A stretch of 38,821 nt of DNA from Methanobrevibacter sp. (GTDB lineage: Archaea > Methanobacteriota > Methanobacteria > Methanobacteriales > Methanobacteriaceae), in contig NZ_JAGAXX010000017.1 in NCBI RefSeq assembly GCF_017940815.1, forward strand, positions 1-38,821, read 5' to 3'. The notes under the pieces were generated by a model. The model did no database searches. It worked only from the letters and a program-made list of their open reading frames with translations, and was not told where the DNA came from. Made by a program: the position numbers and the translations under genes. Shown one piece after another: positions 9,828-17,029 of this stretch (its first letter is position 1; each line of letters starts with the position of its first letter).

Positions 9828-10182
9828 CAACATACATTAAAGGATAGTTCAACTCTTCAATAAACTCAATTCTTATTATTGCTTTGACATTTTCCACTTT
9901 TGTATGGATTTTAACGTCTAGCATATCTCCTGTCAATGATGTGTAGTCGAATTCGGTCATTGATTCTTCGAGTTTGTCAAATCTTATTTCAACTTCTACG
10001 TCTTCAATTGCGGGTTGTAATTTTAAAGATTCTTCCATGCTTGTTTCCAAGCTTTCTTTAGTGTTTTTATTAACGGGAGTTCCTACAAATTGGTGGAATA
10101 ATGCTCCCATACTGATGGCTCCCTCAAATATTGCTCTTTCTCTAGTGGTTATATTAGAGAAATATTCTTTATCAACGTCCAT
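9811..10182 (-). CDS. mptD: Dihydroneopterin aldolase, archaeal MptD type
   Basis: A 123-residue protein of the archaeal dihydroneopterin aldolase family (formerly DUF372), which releases glycolaldehyde from 7,8-dihydroneopterin to give 6-hydroxymethyl-dihydropterin for tetrahydromethanopterin. The diagnostic N-terminal block is ERAIFEGAISMGALFHQFVG with conserved Glu and His; ISMGALFHQ and SLTGDMLDVKI are the best family marks. The length is as expected. Its ATG overlaps the sortase stop codon by one base (TAATG) and is served by a GGAGG site lying within the end of the sortase gene, so the two are translationally coupled. It is the last gene of a minus-strand operon otherwise devoted to the envelope, an odd pairing. 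Confidence 0.85.
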   Translation of the reverse strand: MDVDKEYFSNITTRERAIFEGAISMGALFHQFVGTPVNKNTKESLETSMEESLKLQPAIEDVEVEIRFDKLEESMTEFDYTSLTGDMLDVKIHTKVENVKAIIRIEFIEELNYPLMYVEKIED

Positions 10183-10901
10183 TATAATCCTCCGTTTAAA
10201 AATATTATTTTATCATAAATCAGCTCTGAAGGGATTGGATTTATGCAACAGTAGAACAGCACTGCTGAAATTATTAATACTGTGGCTAGTATGTATATTC
10301 TATTCTCTTCCGGATAGAAAAAGCTGAATATCAGTCCAATCACTAAGAATATTGCGGATATGATTAGTGCATTTGATTCTTGTGGATTGTTTTTAATAAT
10401 TTTTTCATCAACAGGATTCAAATCATTAACTTCCCCTTGGATAATCAGTCTATTTTCAGTAGACCCTATAGGATCGCAAGTTATCAGATATGTTGTGTTC
10501 GCCCCTTGTGCATTTAATTCATATGTTGCAGGAACAATTGTTGTGTTCACAACACTGTAATTCAATTCTCCAACTCCTGGCCATTCTATAAGGAACGTAT
10601 CTCCAACAGAAAGCTCATTTAATCTTAAGAAAGGTGATCCTTGCAGTGTTCTATGACCGTATAATATGATTGGGTCATGTGTAGGGATATTCTTTCCAGG
10701 GTCACTTAAAACACCTTGATTTAGAGATTCGTTGTTGATTTTCTCTTCAACCCCTATTGATGGGATAATTATTTTGGGTGATTCGATATTCTTTTCACTC
10801 ACTATTTTTGATGAAAAATAATTCACTTCCCCCATTGCATACAATCCAATTATTAATAAACAAATAATAACAATTATTGTTGAAATACTTGGTTTTTTCA
10901 T
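10182..10901 (-). CDS. Archaeal sortase-family transpeptidase, membrane-bound
   Basis: A 239-residue sortase-fold protein. There is an N-terminal membrane anchor (residues 7-24), then the extracytoplasmic beta-barrel domain with the full catalytic set: H83 in ILYGHRT, C142 in YLITCDP (TLxTC-like) and R151 in TENRLIIQG. Two more hydrophobic segments follow (about 176-193 and 199-217). Sortases join surface proteins carrying a C-terminal sorting motif to a nucleophile; in pseudomurein-walled methanogens the acceptor is not settled, and the substrates would be secreted adhesin-like proteins encoded elsewhere. The extra C-terminal membrane pair differs from classical class A enzymes. It lies between the DUF515-like gene (36 bp upstream) and mptD, which it overlaps by one base. 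The catalytic motif is certain; the biological substrate is unknown. Confidence 0.85.
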   Translation of the reverse strand: MKKPSISTIIVIICLLIIGLYAMGEVNYFSSKIVSEKNIESPKIIIPSIGVEEKINNESLNQGVLSDPGKNIPTHDPIILYGHRTLQGSPFLRLNELSVGDTFLIEWPGVGELNYSVVNTTIVPATYELNAQGANTTYLITCDPIGSTENRLIIQGEVNDLNPVDEKIIKNNPQESNALIISAIFLVIGLIFSFFYPEENRIYILATVLIISAVLFYCCINPIPSELIYDKIIFLNGGL

Positions 10902-10937
10902 AATAATTGTTTTGTAAAATCTATTATAATACTTTTT

Positions 10938-12116
10938 TTAATTCTGGTAAGTTGAACTGATTTCCTTTATCATCCAATCTGGGGCTTCGGAAGTTGGGAT
11001 TGTCAAGACGATATTGTCCATATTATTTAAGATATAATTGACCTTTTCTTGAGGCACTTCAATTAAAAGCATATATTGCGCGTCCAGATCTCCTAAATTA
11101 ATTTGACGTTCATAATTGGATAGTTTCACGCCATAGCTTTTCAGCATCTCAAATGTTTTGTTTTCATCATAACCTTTAACAATTGCTCCTTTAATCATTT
11201 CCAAAACGTCAGAAGAGAATCCCTGTGTATTTTCATGAGGATTTGTATTGTTTCCTTTAACATTCATTTTTGTTTTTGAGTACTCAGAATCTATTTCGCC
11301 GTTTTCCTCATATCTCATGATTGACAGAACAGTGCAGCCGCTAATTTCGGGTTCTGTGATGTTTGAAGTGTAATTGTCTTCTGTCGAATTGAAGTTGGAA
11401 TAGATGTCCACCACACTTCCGACCTTGACAAGGCCCGCTCCTGCCTGCAGTCTTGAAACGAGAATGGGTACTGAAACGGTATTTGGTTCTTCAAATTTAA
11501 TTTTTGAAAGAACTGTAGCATCATTTTCATTGATGATTTTCATAGCTTCTGAGGCTGAAATTATTGTATTTTTACTTTCATTTTCATAAACTGCCATTGT
11601 TCTGTTGTATTTGTCTTGATTTGTATTTATTGACTTTTTATGGAACGATTTCCAGTCTTTTGTTGCTGGTGTTATTATGTTTATGCTTTCAATTTCTTCA
11701 CGGCTTCCAGCATCATTTATTTTATTTTCTAGTAACATCTCGTTGGGGGATGTTGCAAGCGCTCCGGAATATAAGTCGTGAAGTTCATTCAGTTTTGTTG
11801 TTTTTGCAATTGACAATTGCTCCTGTGAAGGTTCATAAATTATAAAATAATATGCTGAGACAATTAATGTCAGTACTATTAAAGTAGTTATTATCACTCC
11901 AATTTTTCTTTTTTTCTCATCATCACTTATTTCAGTTGTTTTTGGAGACAGATAAACTCCAATCTTATGATTCAACTTTTTCAATGGAGACAGTTCATCT
12001 TCAAGTCCTTCTTTTTTATTAGGTTTTGGAAATTCTTCAGAAATTTGCTTTCTCAATTCCCTTGTTTCTTCAAAACCTCTGGGGTACAATGGATCTCTTG
12101 GTTTTTTATTATTCAT
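10938..12116 (-). CDS. DUF515-like membrane protein with CpaB/SAF-like segment
   Basis: A 392-residue protein resembling the DUF515 family of Methanobacteriales. A basic, proline-containing cytoplasmic region (1-70) precedes one membrane helix (72-94), and a large extracytoplasmic domain follows. Within it, the run SVPILVSRLQAGAGLVKVG and then SVVDIYSNF resembles the SAF/RcpC-like domain of CpaB, a Flp-pilus assembly protein; this is a resemblance by eye, not a proven homology. The neighbours are archaetidylserine synthase upstream and sortase downstream, so a surface-assembly role is inferred. A GGAG ribosome site precedes the ATG and forms one arm of an inverted repeat in the leader, suggesting translational control. 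Confidence 0.7.
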   Translation of the reverse strand: MNNKKPRDPLYPRGFEETRELRKQISEEFPKPNKKEGLEDELSPLKKLNHKIGVYLSPKTTEISDDEKKRKIGVIITTLIVLTLIVSAYYFIIYEPSQEQLSIAKTTKLNELHDLYSGALATSPNEMLLENKINDAGSREEIESINIITPATKDWKSFHKKSINTNQDKYNRTMAVYENESKNTIISASEAMKIINENDATVLSKIKFEEPNTVSVPILVSRLQAGAGLVKVGSVVDIYSNFNSTEDNYTSNITEPEISGCTVLSIMRYEENGEIDSEYSKTKMNVKGNNTNPHENTQGFSSDVLEMIKGAIVKGYDENKTFEMLKSYGVKLSNYERQINLGDLDAQYMLLIEVPQEKVNYILNNMDNIVLTIPTSEAPDWMIKEISSTYQN

Positions 12117-12176: not shown

Positions 12177-12872
12177 TTATATTTTAATTAAATTAATTAT
12201 CAGGTAGTATAGACAGAATAATAATAGTAGTAATGCAGGGATATTGATTCCAAATAAAACTATATTTATCGGTAATATCAACAGAACAATTAAAATTGCA
12301 GATATTGCAATCAGTGGAATGTTGTCGAACTTAGGGTATCTGATATTTGAAACCATCAATAGTGATACGATAACGCTTAATATTATTGCAAGATATGGGT
12401 TAAATAATCCACTAAGGTATAATGTTGCTAAAATGAAGGATATTCCTGGTATTGGAAATCCGATAAAATCGGTGGTGTCGATTTTTCCAGCAATCACATT
12501 GTATCTTGTCAATCTTAAAACGCCACAGATAACAATTAATAAACTGATTAATATTACTGCTATTTGAAAGATTCCGGGGGTGGTGTTAATGCAGCTGTAC
12601 AGGAATGTAGCTGGCGCAACTCCAAATGAAACAATATCTGATAAGGAATCTATATTTTTTCCAAATCCCAAATCATCTTGCCTATTTGTTTTTCTTGCTA
12701 CCCAACCATCACATGAGTCGAATATGATTGCAATAATCATGAGGATTGCGGCTAGTTCAAAATTATTGTTCACTGAACTTATGATTGCCAAAAATCCAGA
12801 AGACATATTCAAAAGGGATATTATGTCTGATATTGCAATGAAACTTTCCATCTTGGTGTTCATATTACTCAT
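12177..12872 (-). CDS. pssA: Archaetidylserine synthase (CDP-alcohol phosphatidyltransferase family)
   Basis: A 231-residue polytopic membrane enzyme that transfers L-serine to CDP-archaeol, giving archaetidylserine, the precursor of archaetidylethanolamine. The CDP-alcohol phosphotransferase motif begins at D52 with DSCDGWVAR (52-60) and continues to the acidic residues D75 and D79 in GKNIDSLSD, followed by SFGVAPA, typical of serine-using members. The spacing between AR and the next Gly of the motif is ten residues rather than the usual eight. About seven hydrophobic segments fill the remainder. The start has a GGAG site 7 bases upstream. It heads the minus-strand operon with the DUF515-like gene, sortase and mptD. 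Serine as acceptor is inferred from the family pattern; an inositol or glycerol acceptor is less likely. Confidence 0.82.
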   Translation of the reverse strand: MSNMNTKMESFIAISDIISLLNMSSGFLAIISSVNNNFELAAILMIIAIIFDSCDGWVARKTNRQDDLGFGKNIDSLSDIVSFGVAPATFLYSCINTTPGIFQIAVILISLLIVICGVLRLTRYNVIAGKIDTTDFIGFPIPGISFILATLYLSGLFNPYLAIILSVIVSLLMVSNIRYPKFDNIPLIAISAILIVLLILPINIVLFGINIPALLLLLFCLYYLIINLIKI

Positions 12873-13297: not shown

Positions 13298-13936
13298 ATG
13301 ATAGAAGATAATATACGTGTCCTAAGACAAGCTGCAAGAGTTTCATCAGGAAACAATCAGCCAATTCAAAAAGAATGGTGTGTTATTGCAGGAAATGTTG
13401 ATTTGGTTGATAATATGGCATATAAGGCCATTGCATCAAATCATAATGTTAAAATCTTGTTCAGGGAACATGTGATTCTTAAAGAAGGCAAATTGGATAA
13501 AAAATTTGATTTTATCATGCTTTATGGGAATCCTTTGATTCTTAATGATTTTAGAAATACTACTCTAAAGCTTGGTGGTGCATTTATACAAATTGCAAGG
13601 GAATACTTGGCAAAAGAGCCTAATTTGATGGTATTGGTCGCACCAGATGATGTGATCAGGAACACCGTTTCCACTATCGAAAAATCTAAATTGCCTTTTG
13701 CAATTATTAAAGAATCTCAGACCACTGGTTTCATTGATATTGATTTAAATAATGATGTAAAATTGCCTAATTTTGTTAAATCTGCTTTAAAACCATTTTA
13801 CAATGCTAATGAAGTTGTTTTATCAACAATTTTAATTTCTGTTGAAAAAGATGGTGATGTTGGAAAAGTTCAGAGTATAGCTACATCTAATAAAATTTTC
13901 GTTATTGATTTTAGAGACATTGTAACGGAGGATTAA
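13298..13936 (+). CDS. Conserved-looking protein of unknown function linked to MreB
   Basis: A 212-residue soluble protein with no family that I recognise. It has no signal peptide or membrane segment. The composition suggests an alpha/beta fold: alternating hydrophobic strands such as WCVIAGNVDLV, FDFIMLYGNPLIL and LMVLVAPDDVI are separated by helices. There is no obvious P-loop or catalytic signature. It begins with a probable leaderless start and ends two bases before the mreB ATG, whose GGAGG ribosome site lies in its last codons, so the two proteins are almost certainly made together. A role in filament regulation or morphogenesis is inferred from position only. Confidence 0.8.
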   Translation: MIEDNIRVLRQAARVSSGNNQPIQKEWCVIAGNVDLVDNMAYKAIASNHNVKILFREHVILKEGKLDKKFDFIMLYGNPLILNDFRNTTLKLGGAFIQIAREYLAKEPNLMVLVAPDDVIRNTVSTIEKSKLPFAIIKESQTTGFIDIDLNNDVKLPNFVKSALKPFYNANEVVLSTILISVEKDGDVGKVQSIATSNKIFVIDFRDIVTED

Positions 13937-13938
13937 TC

Positions 13939-15012
13939 ATGAATATTTTTGGAAATGAAGAAGAAGTACCAGAAGCTGAAAACACTAAAGTTATCAGTAA
14001 TAGTTTAGGAATTGATTTAGGAACTTTAAATACTGTTATTGCAAAACCTTCCGGAGATAAATTTGACTTATATCAAATTCCATCTGTAGTAGCAGTTAAA
14101 AAAGATGACCCTGCTGAAGTTTTAGCAGTTGGTGAAGAAGCTAAAAAAATGCTTGGAAGAACTCCTGAAGATATTCTCGCAGTAAGACCTTTGAAAAAAG
14201 GAGTTATTGAAAATGTTGTGCAAGCACAAGCATTACTCATTAAAGCAATGCAAATTGGTATTAATGAAGGTGAAACCGTAGGAAGAATTGTCATTGGTAT
14301 TCCGGGGGATGCATCTGAAGTGGAAAAGAATGCTGCTGAAGAAATCGGTAGAAAAGCCGGTGCACAAAATATTTTAGTAATCAGTGAAGGATTAGCTGCT
14401 GCTATTGGTGCAGGATTGCCAATTGCAGAACCAAATGGTACTATGGTTATTGATATTGGTGCAGGTTCAACCGATATTGTGATTATTTCTCTCGGTGGTA
14501 TCAACGATATTGAAACAGTTAGATGTGGTGGAGACGACATTGACAATAAAATTGTTGAAATTGTTGCAGAAAAATACGATGTAGCTATTGGTATTCATGA
14601 TGCAGAATCCGCTAAAATGGAAGTTGGTATGGTGCACTGTTCCGAACAACTTGAAAACTTAAGTGTTGAAGTTATCGGTAAATCATTAGAAACCAACAGG
14701 CCTAAAAAAGTAGTGATTGATTCAATGCTCGTTGCAGATGCAGTAGAACCATACATGCAACAAATAGTCGATGGATTAAATGTAATCTTAGAAAGATTAT
14801 CTCCAGAATTGATGATGGGAGTTTACAACAACTCAGTTGCAGTTGGTGGAAGTTCAAGACTCCGTGGATTAAAAGAAAGAATCTTTGATGAAATTGCTAT
14901 CCCTGTAGAAATTTCAGAAGATCCAATGACTGTTGTAGCAAAAGGTACTGCAATCGTTGCTGCAGAACCATTAGCTTTAGAACCTGAAGTCCGTCTTAGG
15001 GCTATGAAATAA
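13939..15012 (+). CDS. mreB: Archaeal MreB-like actin-family ATPase
   Basis: A 357-residue actin/Hsp70-fold protein whose motifs follow bacterial MreB: phosphate 1 loop GIDLGTLNTVIA (24-35), PSVVAV, VRPLKKGVIENV, VIGIPGDASEVEKNAAEE, phosphate 2 loop VIDIGAGSTDI, and the adenosine motif VAVGGSSRLRGL near the C-terminus. The length fits MreB (about 340) rather than DnaK. In Bacteria MreB filaments guide wall synthesis; in pseudomurein-containing Methanobacteriales the homologue is thought to act likewise, which I infer here. The 15-residue N-terminal extension is acidic. The ATG follows a GGAGG site and stands two bases after the preceding gene. A stop-codon hairpin and T tract end the operon. 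Confidence 0.9.
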   Translation: MNIFGNEEEVPEAENTKVISNSLGIDLGTLNTVIAKPSGDKFDLYQIPSVVAVKKDDPAEVLAVGEEAKKMLGRTPEDILAVRPLKKGVIENVVQAQALLIKAMQIGINEGETVGRIVIGIPGDASEVEKNAAEEIGRKAGAQNILVISEGLAAAIGAGLPIAEPNGTMVIDIGAGSTDIVIISLGGINDIETVRCGGDDIDNKIVEIVAEKYDVAIGIHDAESAKMEVGMVHCSEQLENLSVEVIGKSLETNRPKKVVIDSMLVADAVEPYMQQIVDGLNVILERLSPELMMGVYNNSVAVGGSSRLRGLKERIFDEIAIPVEISEDPMTVVAKGTAIVAAEPLALEPEVRLRAMK

Positions 15013-15059: not shown

Positions 15060-15674
15060 ATGGATATTTTAGGTATTGATGAGGCTGGCAGAGGATCTGT
15101 TTTAGGCCCGTTAGTCATTGCAGGAGTGATTGTTCCTGAAAAAATGGAAAAAGTCCTTGAAAGGATGGGCGTTAAAGATTCCAAACGTTTGGCTCCTCAT
15201 AGACGTACTATTTTATCTCGTAAATTAAAGAAAATGTTTGAATATGACATCATTGTCATTTCTGCTCGTGAAATTGATGAAATGAGGGCAGAAGGAATTA
15301 ATCTCAATGAAATTGAGAAAAATGCAATGGAAGAACTTATTTTAAGATTAAAACCTGAAAAGGCCATTGTCGATGCTGTTGATGTGAAAGCTGAAAGGTT
15401 CCAGGAAAATTTACGTAAAGACACTGGATTTGACATTACTGCGGAACACAAGGCCGATGACAATTATATACAGGTAAGTGCGGCATCAATTATTGCAAAA
15501 GCGGAAAGGGATGATCAGATAGCTGAAATTAATAAGGAATTCATTAAACAAGGTGGAATAGGTTCAGGTTATCCGTCTGACCCGACCACTAAAAAATTTT
15601 TAACAAATTATACATATGATGAAATGCCTGATTTTGTTAGAAGGTCATGGAATACCGTTGCTAAAATGAAATGA
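15060..15674 (+). CDS. rnhB: Ribonuclease HII
   Basis: A 204-residue endonuclease that cuts the RNA strand of RNA-DNA hybrids and removes single ribonucleotides and primers. The family motif GIDEAGRGSVLGPLVIAG is at the N-terminus with D7 and E8. The third acid is in KAIVDAVDV, and the last lies in EHKADDNYIQVSAASIIAK, which includes the conserved Ser-Ile-Ile-Ala-Lys. The ATG at 15060 puts the motif in the usual place; an in-frame TTG at 15048 would add four residues. No strong ribosome site is seen, and the gene begins 47 bp after mreB. It ends in its own small stop-codon hairpin and a nine-T tract. Confidence 0.95.
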   Translation: MDILGIDEAGRGSVLGPLVIAGVIVPEKMEKVLERMGVKDSKRLAPHRRTILSRKLKKMFEYDIIVISAREIDEMRAEGINLNEIEKNAMEELILRLKPEKAIVDAVDVKAERFQENLRKDTGFDITAEHKADDNYIQVSAASIIAKAERDDQIAEINKEFIKQGGIGSGYPSDPTTKKFLTNYTYDEMPDFVRRSWNTVAKMK

Positions 15675-15691: not shown

Positions 15692-15767
15692 AAATAATTT
15701 TAAGTATATGAATTAATATAATATTCTTATAAACGATTTTCAAAGATAATACTTTAAGAGGATGAAA

Positions 15768-16607
15768 ATGATTGTTGAGTATATTATGCCATTTATTGAT
15801 GGAATGATGGATATTTTTACTCAAGGAGGGATTATAACTTATATAATTCTTTTTGTAGGTATTTATGGTCTTATTATTGCATTAAGAAAAATAGCATATC
15901 TTAGAAAAATTAGTAAAGTTGATACAACCGAAATATTTGGGGTTGTAACTGCTTCTATGGAAAGAGGCGGTGCCGTTGAAGCTTTAAAACAGATTAATGG
16001 TTTTAAAAATCCTATTTCTAGAATTATTTCAGAAACCTTAAAAATCGGTTATAAAAATAAAACCGAGGTTGAAGAAAGTATGGAGCAAATTTTCATTGTT
16101 GAAGTTGCTAAAATGACTAAAGGTTTAAACACCATAAAAACTATTATTGAACTTGCTCCATTTTTAGGTTTAATCGGTACCGTTATTGGTATTTGGATGA
16201 CTTTCAAATCTTTAGGGGTTCATCCAGACTCTGCAGCTATGGCAGAAGGTATTTATGTTGCTTTAACCACCACTATTATGGGTCTTTTAGTGGCTATTGT
16301 TCTATTGCCATTGTACACTTATATCCAAGGGCTTATCGAAGCTGAAATGGATAAAATTGAACTTGCTACCAAAATGACTAACTGGGGTTACGCTGTAGTT
16401 AAAGTTAGAGTTGATTCTAATGTTGAATGTGCACTTGAAGCTTTACAAGAAGCTGAAGGTGTTGTAAACACTAGATTGATTTCTGACCCTTATGCCAATA
16501 TAAAAGTGTCTTTTAAACCAAGTATGTTAGATAAAAGTATTGCGAATATTATTTTAGAGAAATGTAATGTTAATGCTGAAATTACTGAAAGTAAACTAAG
16601 ACAATAG
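15768..16607 (+). CDS. MotA/TolQ/ExbB-family proton-channel protein
   Basis: A 279-residue membrane protein of the ExbB/TolQ/MotA family. There is one N-terminal helix (about 19-39), a cytoplasmic loop of about 85 residues, and then the characteristic helix pair: FLGLIGTVIGIWMTFKSLG (about 130-150) and the Thr/Gly-rich helix ALTTTIMGLLVAIVLL (about 165-185). In Bacteria these proteins form pentamers around ExbD/TolR helices and couple ion flow to mechanical work. A C-terminal domain of about 75 residues (roughly 205-279), with alternating beta and alpha pattern, is longer than in typical ExbB. The ATG at 15768 has GAGG at proper spacing; the ATG at 15762 touches that site. The ExbD-like gene follows after 8 bp. 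Confidence 0.85.
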   Translation: MIVEYIMPFIDGMMDIFTQGGIITYIILFVGIYGLIIALRKIAYLRKISKVDTTEIFGVVTASMERGGAVEALKQINGFKNPISRIISETLKIGYKNKTEVEESMEQIFIVEVAKMTKGLNTIKTIIELAPFLGLIGTVIGIWMTFKSLGVHPDSAAMAEGIYVALTTTIMGLLVAIVLLPLYTYIQGLIEAEMDKIELATKMTNWGYAVVKVRVDSNVECALEALQEAEGVVNTRLISDPYANIKVSFKPSMLDKSIANIILEKCNVNAEITESKLRQ

Positions 16608-16615
16608 GTGAAAGA

Positions 16616-17029
16616 ATGGCAATTGATGTTAGAAAACATAAAAAGAAATTGGATCAAAAGCCAAATATCAATTTAGTTCCGTTCATTGACATTCTTTTCA
16701 CAATAATGATTTTCTTAGTTGTCACTAGTAATTTTTCAGCTACTGATGTTCAAGCTGATGATGCTGCTAAGGACATTGACCAAGGCAGTGGAAAACCAAA
16801 TGTTACCGATGTTTCTGGTGATCAGGAATATTATGTCATGCCTGTCGCTAACTTGCATAAAGTTACTGTAGACGGTCAAGACCGCTCGGATGCGATAGCC
16901 GGAAGCGCCGTTGGTGTTCAAGCAAGAGTTATTGATGAAGGACAAGTTACTATCAAACCTGGTGAAATTGTAATTAAATGCCCTCCAGGAATTTCTGCAG
17001 ATAAGGCTGTCCAACGTCCTGAACTTTAA
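16616..17029 (+). CDS. ExbD/TolR-like biopolymer transport protein
   Basis: A 137-residue protein with a basic cytoplasmic N-terminus, one membrane helix (21-39) preceded by NINLVPFIDILFT, and an external domain. D25 in VPFIDILF is the conserved protonatable aspartate of the ExbD/TolR/MotB helix. The external part is only about 97 residues and includes an acidic, glycine-containing linker, then a strand-rich segment ending VQRPEL. No peptidoglycan-binding OmpA-type domain is present, so it is not MotB. It has a GGTGA ribosome site and stands 8 bp after the ExbB-like gene and 15 bp before purO, so these are one transcript. What the motor drives in a cell without an outer membrane is unknown. 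Confidence 0.85.
   Translation: MAIDVRKHKKKLDQKPNINLVPFIDILFTIMIFLVVTSNFSATDVQADDAAKDIDQGSGKPNVTDVSGDQEYYVMPVANLHKVTVDGQDRSDAIAGSAVGVQARVIDEGQVTIKPGEIVIKCPPGISADKAVQRPEL

Follow-up and report, generated by a model that had tools for sequence, protein, structure and literature searches.

RodZ, MreC and MreD, the dedicated partners of MreB in bacteria, are membrane proteins with folds other than the one predicted here, and SepF consists of an N-terminal helix, a linker and a small alpha/beta domain. Among archaea, the arcadins are encoded beside the actin-like gene of crenactin and are suggested to be regulators (PMC7613921, in the section drawn on here). A different arrangement is that of PilN, a conserved N-terminal motif of which docks in a pocket of the FtsA-like protein PilM, and whose core domain, like that of PilO, contains ferredoxin-like motifs (PMC5805733, again in the part used here). 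Closest to the present subject is cluster C of Lupo et al. (2025). Its OG0001176, described as a "coiled coil protein", is retained in each of the five pseudomurein archaea, and an MreB/DnaK-like OG is "always located downstream" of it; in the portion of that paper considered here, cluster C is judged probably unrelated to pseudomurein (PMC11915815).

We analysed a window of 38,821 nucleotides, a stretch of DNA from Methanobrevibacter sp. (contig NZ_JAGAXX010000017.1), in which a gene for an uncharacterised protein, here designated P1, stands directly upstream of mreB (Table 1). The P1 ORF runs from an ATG to a TAA that is separated by two bases from the mreB ATG, and the mreB Shine-Dalgarno sequence, seven nucleotides ahead of that ATG, lies within the last P1 codons; the junction is thus as the initial annotation had described it. 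P1 appears soluble, having no transmembrane stretch (the top mean hydropathy over 19 residues is 0.95). The gene that follows encodes a bona fide MreB, which matches Pfam MreB_Mbl over residues 21-343 against a cut-off of 27 bits (score in Table 1) and scores under the curated NCBIfam MreB cut-offs (278.5 of 293 and 264.5 of 365.75). The sole other MreB_Mbl match in the genome of the window, at 69.2 bits, is to a 626-residue frame that, from its length, is probably DnaK.

Table 1. Features of the P1-mreB locus, in window coordinates.
Feature	Position	Strand	Basis
P1, 212-residue uncharacterised MreB-linked protein (stop included)	13298..13936	+	ORF; no Pfam, NCBIfam or PDB family
Conserved N-terminal peptide MIEDxIxxLRxAAxVS, codons 1-16 (proposed docking peptide)	13298..13345	+	Cross-phylum identity; low pLDDT
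Variable linker, codons 17-25	13346..13372	+	Mean majority-residue fraction 0.33
Predicted ferredoxin-like domain 1, codons 26-104	13373..13609	+	Structure model
Predicted ferredoxin-like/ACT-like domain 2 with extra helix-strand, codons 105-209	13610..13924	+	Structure model
GGAGG, mreB Shine-Dalgarno inside P1	13927..13931	+	Sequence
mreB, 357 residues	13939..15012	+	Pfam PF06723, 323.5 bits
Archaetidylserine synthase gene, left flank (next to rnhB in genomes that lost P1-mreB)	12177..12872	-	NF038087, 306.9 bits
Ribonuclease HII gene (rnhB), right flank	15060..15674	+	TIGR00729, 225.4 bits

P1 shares with OG0001176 its occurrence in pseudomurein archaea, a position immediately ahead of an MreB/DnaK-like gene and a bidirectional cluster that also holds sortase E and RcpC/CpaB genes, and it likewise has neither a signal peptide nor a TM segment. 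The gene order reported for OG0001176 was found in the window and in most mapped loci, and P1 is almost certainly of that family, the two being equated by position and annotation only. We would guess that the "coiled coil" label may reflect the charged extension that M. ruminantium-type members carry at the C-terminus. This extension is variable among the P1 proteins of that genus (L109, L110, L128, L132 and L145), in which mreB starts some 260-400 bp further on and is uncoupled. Neither a fold nor a peptide is given for this protein in the part of PMC11915815 considered here, in the main text of which the word Methanosphaera is absent, and the openly licensed literature yielded no report of the P1 fold, of its peptide or of co-loss with MreB. 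The synteny is already in print (PMC11915815); the fold, the peptide and the loss pattern described in the present analysis seem to be new.

P1 had initially been left without a family, and our searches bear this out: no match to Pfam or NCBIfam was obtained at E up to 1, and no relative in the PDB was found by sequence (best E 0.73) or with a profile of 44 homologues (best E 0.36, to WalK). Searched against Pfam, the 44 homologues touched merely 20 families, each matched weakly by one or two members. A single match had an E below 0.001, to RR_TM4-6 (3.9e-4, under its cut-off), and was rejected; it covers residues 167-281 of an M. ruminantium-type homologue, largely its charged C-terminal extension. 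Unlike RodZ, MreC and MreD, neither P1 nor its 43 homologues match the Pfam families of those names, and unlike SepF, neither P1 nor its homologues match the SepF family at E up to 1. The PilN and ACT families of Pfam were likewise unmatched by P1 and its homologues.

The order of the two genes was inspected in 86 loci (L063-L148), 76 of which carry both genes in full enough form to be counted; the ten left out comprise nine with a truncated, weak or absent P1 or MreB (P1 being weak or partial in L121, L122 and L142) and one, L141, with neither gene. Strand and order were identical in all 76 counted loci, a number that includes several contigs fetched twice. The intervening gap is at most 4 bp in 57, 5-700 bp in 17 and larger in two (1.2 and 6.8 kb), with the values for L095 and L100 inflated by a mis-called mreB start. 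A GGAGG-like mreB Shine-Dalgarno sequence lies inside P1 in 58 of the 59 loci whose gap stays within 45 bp, duplicate contigs included. The adjacency of P1 and mreB exceeds chance. In the most widely separated case (G045, L113), about 6.8 kb of other genes stand between the two, and both are retained. An internal deletion of about 14 residues was seen in the second domain of P1 in L099 (G061), where the adjacent mreB is intact.

Around the pair, the genes for archaetidylserine synthase, an RcpC/CpaB-like protein (DUF515) and a sortase diverge from P1 in the window, the sortase-family and RcpC/CpaB-like genes occupying 10182-12116 on the minus strand, and mreB is followed by rnhB, an ExbB/ExbD pair and purO. 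This order is kept in part in most of the 43 mapped loci, those of g5, g11 and some of g13 excepted. The pair after rnhB (15762-17029), of ExbB/MotA/TolQ and ExbD type, a proton-channel energiser in cells that have no outer membrane, is kept near this position in most mapped loci, including the Methanosphaera-like L202-L204. In some Methanobacterium- and Methanothermobacter-like genomes (L111, L112 and L117), a gene of the phosphatidylserine decarboxylase type (PF02666, tested for L117) is found between archaetidylserine synthase and P1.

Occurrence of the two genes was scored in 149 genomes of the order Methanobacteriales, with P1 matches accepted at E up to 0.01 and MreB matches at E up to 1e-20. 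Raw matches placed P1 in 117 and MreB in 116 genomes; two weak P1 matches, in G089 (E 0.0056, in a 901-residue frame) and G090 (E 0.008), were dropped as chance. Both genes were then present in 113 genomes, neither in 31, P1 alone in two (G126 and G134) and MreB alone in three (G103, G136 and G137), a co-occurrence for which the Fisher p of 3e-26 is descriptive only, as it ignores relatedness. In all of the five discordant genomes except G126, the one gene sits at a contig end. Ninety genomes reach 90% completeness with no more than 5% contamination; P1 and MreB were each found in 75 of these, and none of the 90 is discordant. The conservation of the pair across the order that the initial annotation had asked about is thus borne out, and P1 is not widespread without MreB, a single genome of the 149 showing this beyond the contig-end cases.

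The pair extends beyond the order. Across the phylum, a profile search restricted to genomes of 80% completeness or more recovered P1 in 104 of 131 genomes, including G149, of the same class and another order, where it is again directly upstream of mreB. In the Methanopyri, a whole-genome profile search found P1 in two of five genomes, but MreB is present in all five. When the frame immediately before mreB was compared with the P1 profile in a small local search, each of the five matched (E 3e-11 to 2e-16). Since the Methanopyri also carry P1 upstream of mreB, the pair probably either predates the split between Methanobacteria and Methanopyri or was transferred between these groups as a unit. 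In the methanopyral locus L200, an RcpC/CpaB-like gene and archaetidylserine synthase are also found, about 2.5 kb before P1, and a small OapC-like gene (PF09845; L200:4349-4603) immediately precedes P1, so that the operon there may be longer. In one other archaeal phylum, that of G154, P1 was found in none of 115 genomes, in a search that had no positive control and so carries little weight, and the divergent G126 protein, used as a query, found no match in ten of eleven genomes outside the phylum, the eleventh being a Methanopyri genome. Among the genomes searched, which include little beyond these groups, P1 occurs solely in the two groups with pseudomurein.

In genus g3, which we take to be Methanosphaera, both P1 and mreB are absent from all 20 genomes, with the weak G089 match set aside. 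In all six of these that were examined (gene maps were drawn for three), archaetidylserine synthase and rnhB adjoin, with 278-347 bp between the matched stretches, at the place where relatives carry P1-mreB. Missing assembly is ruled out as the cause, as the flanking genes abut in each of the six. The absence represents one loss event, not twenty. Members of the class make pseudopeptidoglycan, and Methanosphaera is coccoid among rod-shaped relatives, according to the part of PMC13135261 drawn on here. Because these genomes lack both genes in a class reported to have pseudomurein, the pair seems not to be required for making a pseudomurein wall, and the link to pseudomurein synthesis put forward in the initial annotation is not upheld. 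Mur ligase matches were obtained in 149 of 149 genomes, with five to nine Mur_ligase_M matches in each Methanosphaera genome; as proof of pseudomurein we rejected this family, which also matches the controls Methanocaldococcus jannaschii and Haloferax volcanii. A simple rule by which MreB equals rod was rejected too, for clade C, to which M. smithii and with it the genus of the window belong, is described as having cocci or coccoid rods (PMC13135261, same part), and its genomes retain both P1 and mreB. The pair follows elongated shape better than wall synthesis, though not strictly.

Eleven further genomes have neither gene. In nine of these rnhB was also not found, and in the other two it is near a contig end, so that in most of the eleven the sequence is probably missing. 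This argument is weak for G056 and G086, whose mapped relatives (g11 and g5, respectively) carry the pair away from rnhB. Moreover, some 1.5 kb next to archaetidylserine synthase in G056 and about 0.5 kb before rnhB in G090 are assembled, and neither stretch contains the pair. These three genomes, which belong to genera other than g3 and are 94% (G056), 86% (G086) and 85% (G090) complete, may represent real further losses of the pair.

Shared loss could in principle reflect operon neighbourhood alone, P1 being a housekeeping protein whose gene was taken together with mreB by a single deletion in Methanosphaera. The short gap in most loci means that one deletion would indeed take both genes, and the loss in Methanosphaera is one event. 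However, both genes are kept in genomes where 0.1-6.8 kb separates them, a housekeeping P1 would be expected elsewhere in the Methanosphaera genomes, where none was found, and P1 has decayed selectively in the case where only mreB was lost. We therefore consider this explanation highly improbable.

The last point comes from G126, a single MAG of the genus of the window, 75% complete. In its locus (L120), P1 is followed 32 bp later by rnhB, with no mreB between, and mreB was not found anywhere in the genome in the MreB search at E up to 1e-20. The neighbouring genes of L120 are about as similar to those of the window as are the neighbours in L130 (rnhB 75 and 77%, ExbB 83 and 81%, archaetidylserine synthase 58 and 60% identity, for L120 and L130, respectively), whereas P1 is 30% identical to that of the window in L120 and 59% in L130. 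At the N-terminus, the first 16 residues of the G126 protein are 14% identical to those of the homologues, against 68% among the homologues themselves, and its two domains show 34 and 26% identity against 54 and 47%. The N-terminal motif is absent in every frame upstream of the G126 P1 start. In this one MAG, then, which has lost mreB alone, P1 has decayed selectively and its N-terminal peptide is gone.

A structure of P1 was predicted with AlphaFold2 from 37 sequences, that of the window and those of 36 of 46 genome-contig loci, giving a mean pLDDT of 82.4 and a pTM of 0.77. In this model, residues 26-104 and about 105-209 each adopt a ferredoxin-like arrangement; comparing profiles gave no sign that the two domains arose by internal duplication (probability under 1%). 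Foldseek returned 12 matches at E up to 0.001 (best 2.6e-6), with whole-chain TM of 0.26-0.29 (about 0.3), most of them to SerB2, for which one title names an ACT domain, and to a putative glycine cleavage repressor, a protein with ACT domains. By VIA-align, the engineered protein 4hhu aligned across both halves with Z 11.6, and single ferredoxin-like domains aligned with either half at Z of about 8-9.6; a Z of about 8-9 per half is common to many unrelated ferredoxin-like proteins. These structural matches support the predicted ferredoxin-like fold class, not a function, and nothing in the predicted fold points to an unrelated metabolic enzyme, which would have told against the partnership first proposed.

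Such resemblances raise the alternative that P1 acts in the MreB pathway without contact, for example by sensing a ligand in the manner of ACT domains and adjusting elongation or operon expression. The titles of most Foldseek matches are in keeping with this, as is an invariant G-N after the first strand of domain 1, a position that is a ligand site in ACT domains. On the other hand, the low whole-chain TM, the sharing of the Z-scores with many unrelated ferredoxin-like proteins and the lack of an ACT Pfam match all count against a sensor, which would also leave unexplained why a detached N-terminal peptide should be the best conserved part of the protein and be lost with MreB. We regard a contact-free role of this kind as unlikely.

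Residues 1-16, which make up this peptide, are the best conserved of the protein, with a mean majority fraction of 0.76 against 0.67 and 0.60 for the two domains, and pLDDT falls below 50 at residues 2-5 and 9-21. Between Methanopyri and Methanobacteria the peptide is 52% identical, as against 15-17% for the folded part, where the domains are hard to align, and each of the twelve best 12-residue windows in this comparison begins at one of residues 1-12. The pattern [IVL][KRQ][VILAM]LR.[AIL]A was found in 76 distinct contexts in 2.6 million redundant six-frame residues, all of them reading as P1 N-termini. A segment so conserved, yet predicted not to fold with the body, was probably kept for binding another molecule.

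What it binds could be the membrane rather than a protein. P1 would then be a tether, its amphipathic N-terminal helix lying on the membrane and its body holding MreB, as SepF does for FtsZ, and the layout of a short N-terminal helix, linker and globular domain does resemble that of SepF. The peptide is predicted to be helical, with a median hydrophobic moment of about 0.4, and of the two thresholds applied to the lipid-binding score, 0.68 (lower) and 1.34 (stricter), the lower is exceeded by 26 of 44 homologues. Just eight of the 44 reach the stricter one, however; net charge ranges from -2 to +4, the hydrophobic moment is unremarkable relative to shuffled sequences (median p 0.07), and what is conserved is a set of exact residues (LR.AA), not amphipathicity. 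Moreover, some archaeal MreBs begin with a hydrophobic-basic stretch (e.g. MFGFGKK) that may be an anchor of their own; that of the window begins MNIFGNEEE. A lipid-binding helix is less likely than a peptide that docks on MreB, and the tether seems to us quite improbable.

For the proposed docking peptide, PilN offers a parallel. Like PilN with PilM, P1 combines a conserved N-terminal peptide with ferredoxin-like domains, a likeness of analogy and not of homology; P1 differs in being soluble, in having two ferredoxin-like domains and in showing no sequence relation to PilN, a protein with a transmembrane segment and a domain in the periplasm. P1 also resembles the arcadins in that its gene stands beside an archaeal actin-like gene, that of crenactin belonging to another archaeal group. 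A model of P1 and MreB as a fused chain reached a pTM of 0.38, its MreB part being misfolded from a shallow alignment; P1 had the same secondary structure in it as before, from the sequence of another species.

Because the peptide is gone where MreB is gone, MreB is its likely target. On balance we favour, with some reserve, the view that P1 is a dedicated cytosolic partner of MreB that serves cell elongation. The short N-terminal peptide, on its flexible linker, would dock onto MreB, and the two ferredoxin-like domains would make a further contact, whether to another protein, to a ligand or to P1 itself, which might control the filament or tie it to the elongation machinery. P1 and mreB would be expressed as a coupled pair, in the service of elongation rather than of wall making. 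The pairing and its antiquity, the co-loss, the predicted fold, the conservation of the peptide and its loss in G126 were computed directly; from these we infer the target of the peptide and the role of the body, bearing in mind that genes of one operon can share a fate without contact between their products. The initial suggestion of a soluble, archaeal-specific MreB partner is thereby strengthened as to the partnership, in that P1 is soluble, restricted to two pseudomurein groups in what was searched, and both co-occurs and is co-lost with MreB; its proposed target shifts from wall synthesis to cell elongation. A more specific scenario, possible but doubtful as a whole, would make P1 the elongation adaptor of those archaea that combine a bacterial-type MreB with a murein-like wall, a soluble protein of tandem ferredoxin-like domains with a linear MreB-docking peptide, convergent with PilN-PilM, and would have filament and adaptor lost together as the rods of Methanosphaera became true cocci and kept their pseudomurein.

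The deletion in Methanosphaera sets cell shape apart from wall synthesis in these archaea. A protein inherited and lost with MreB, and best conserved in a detached peptide, provides a handle on how the filament might be wired.
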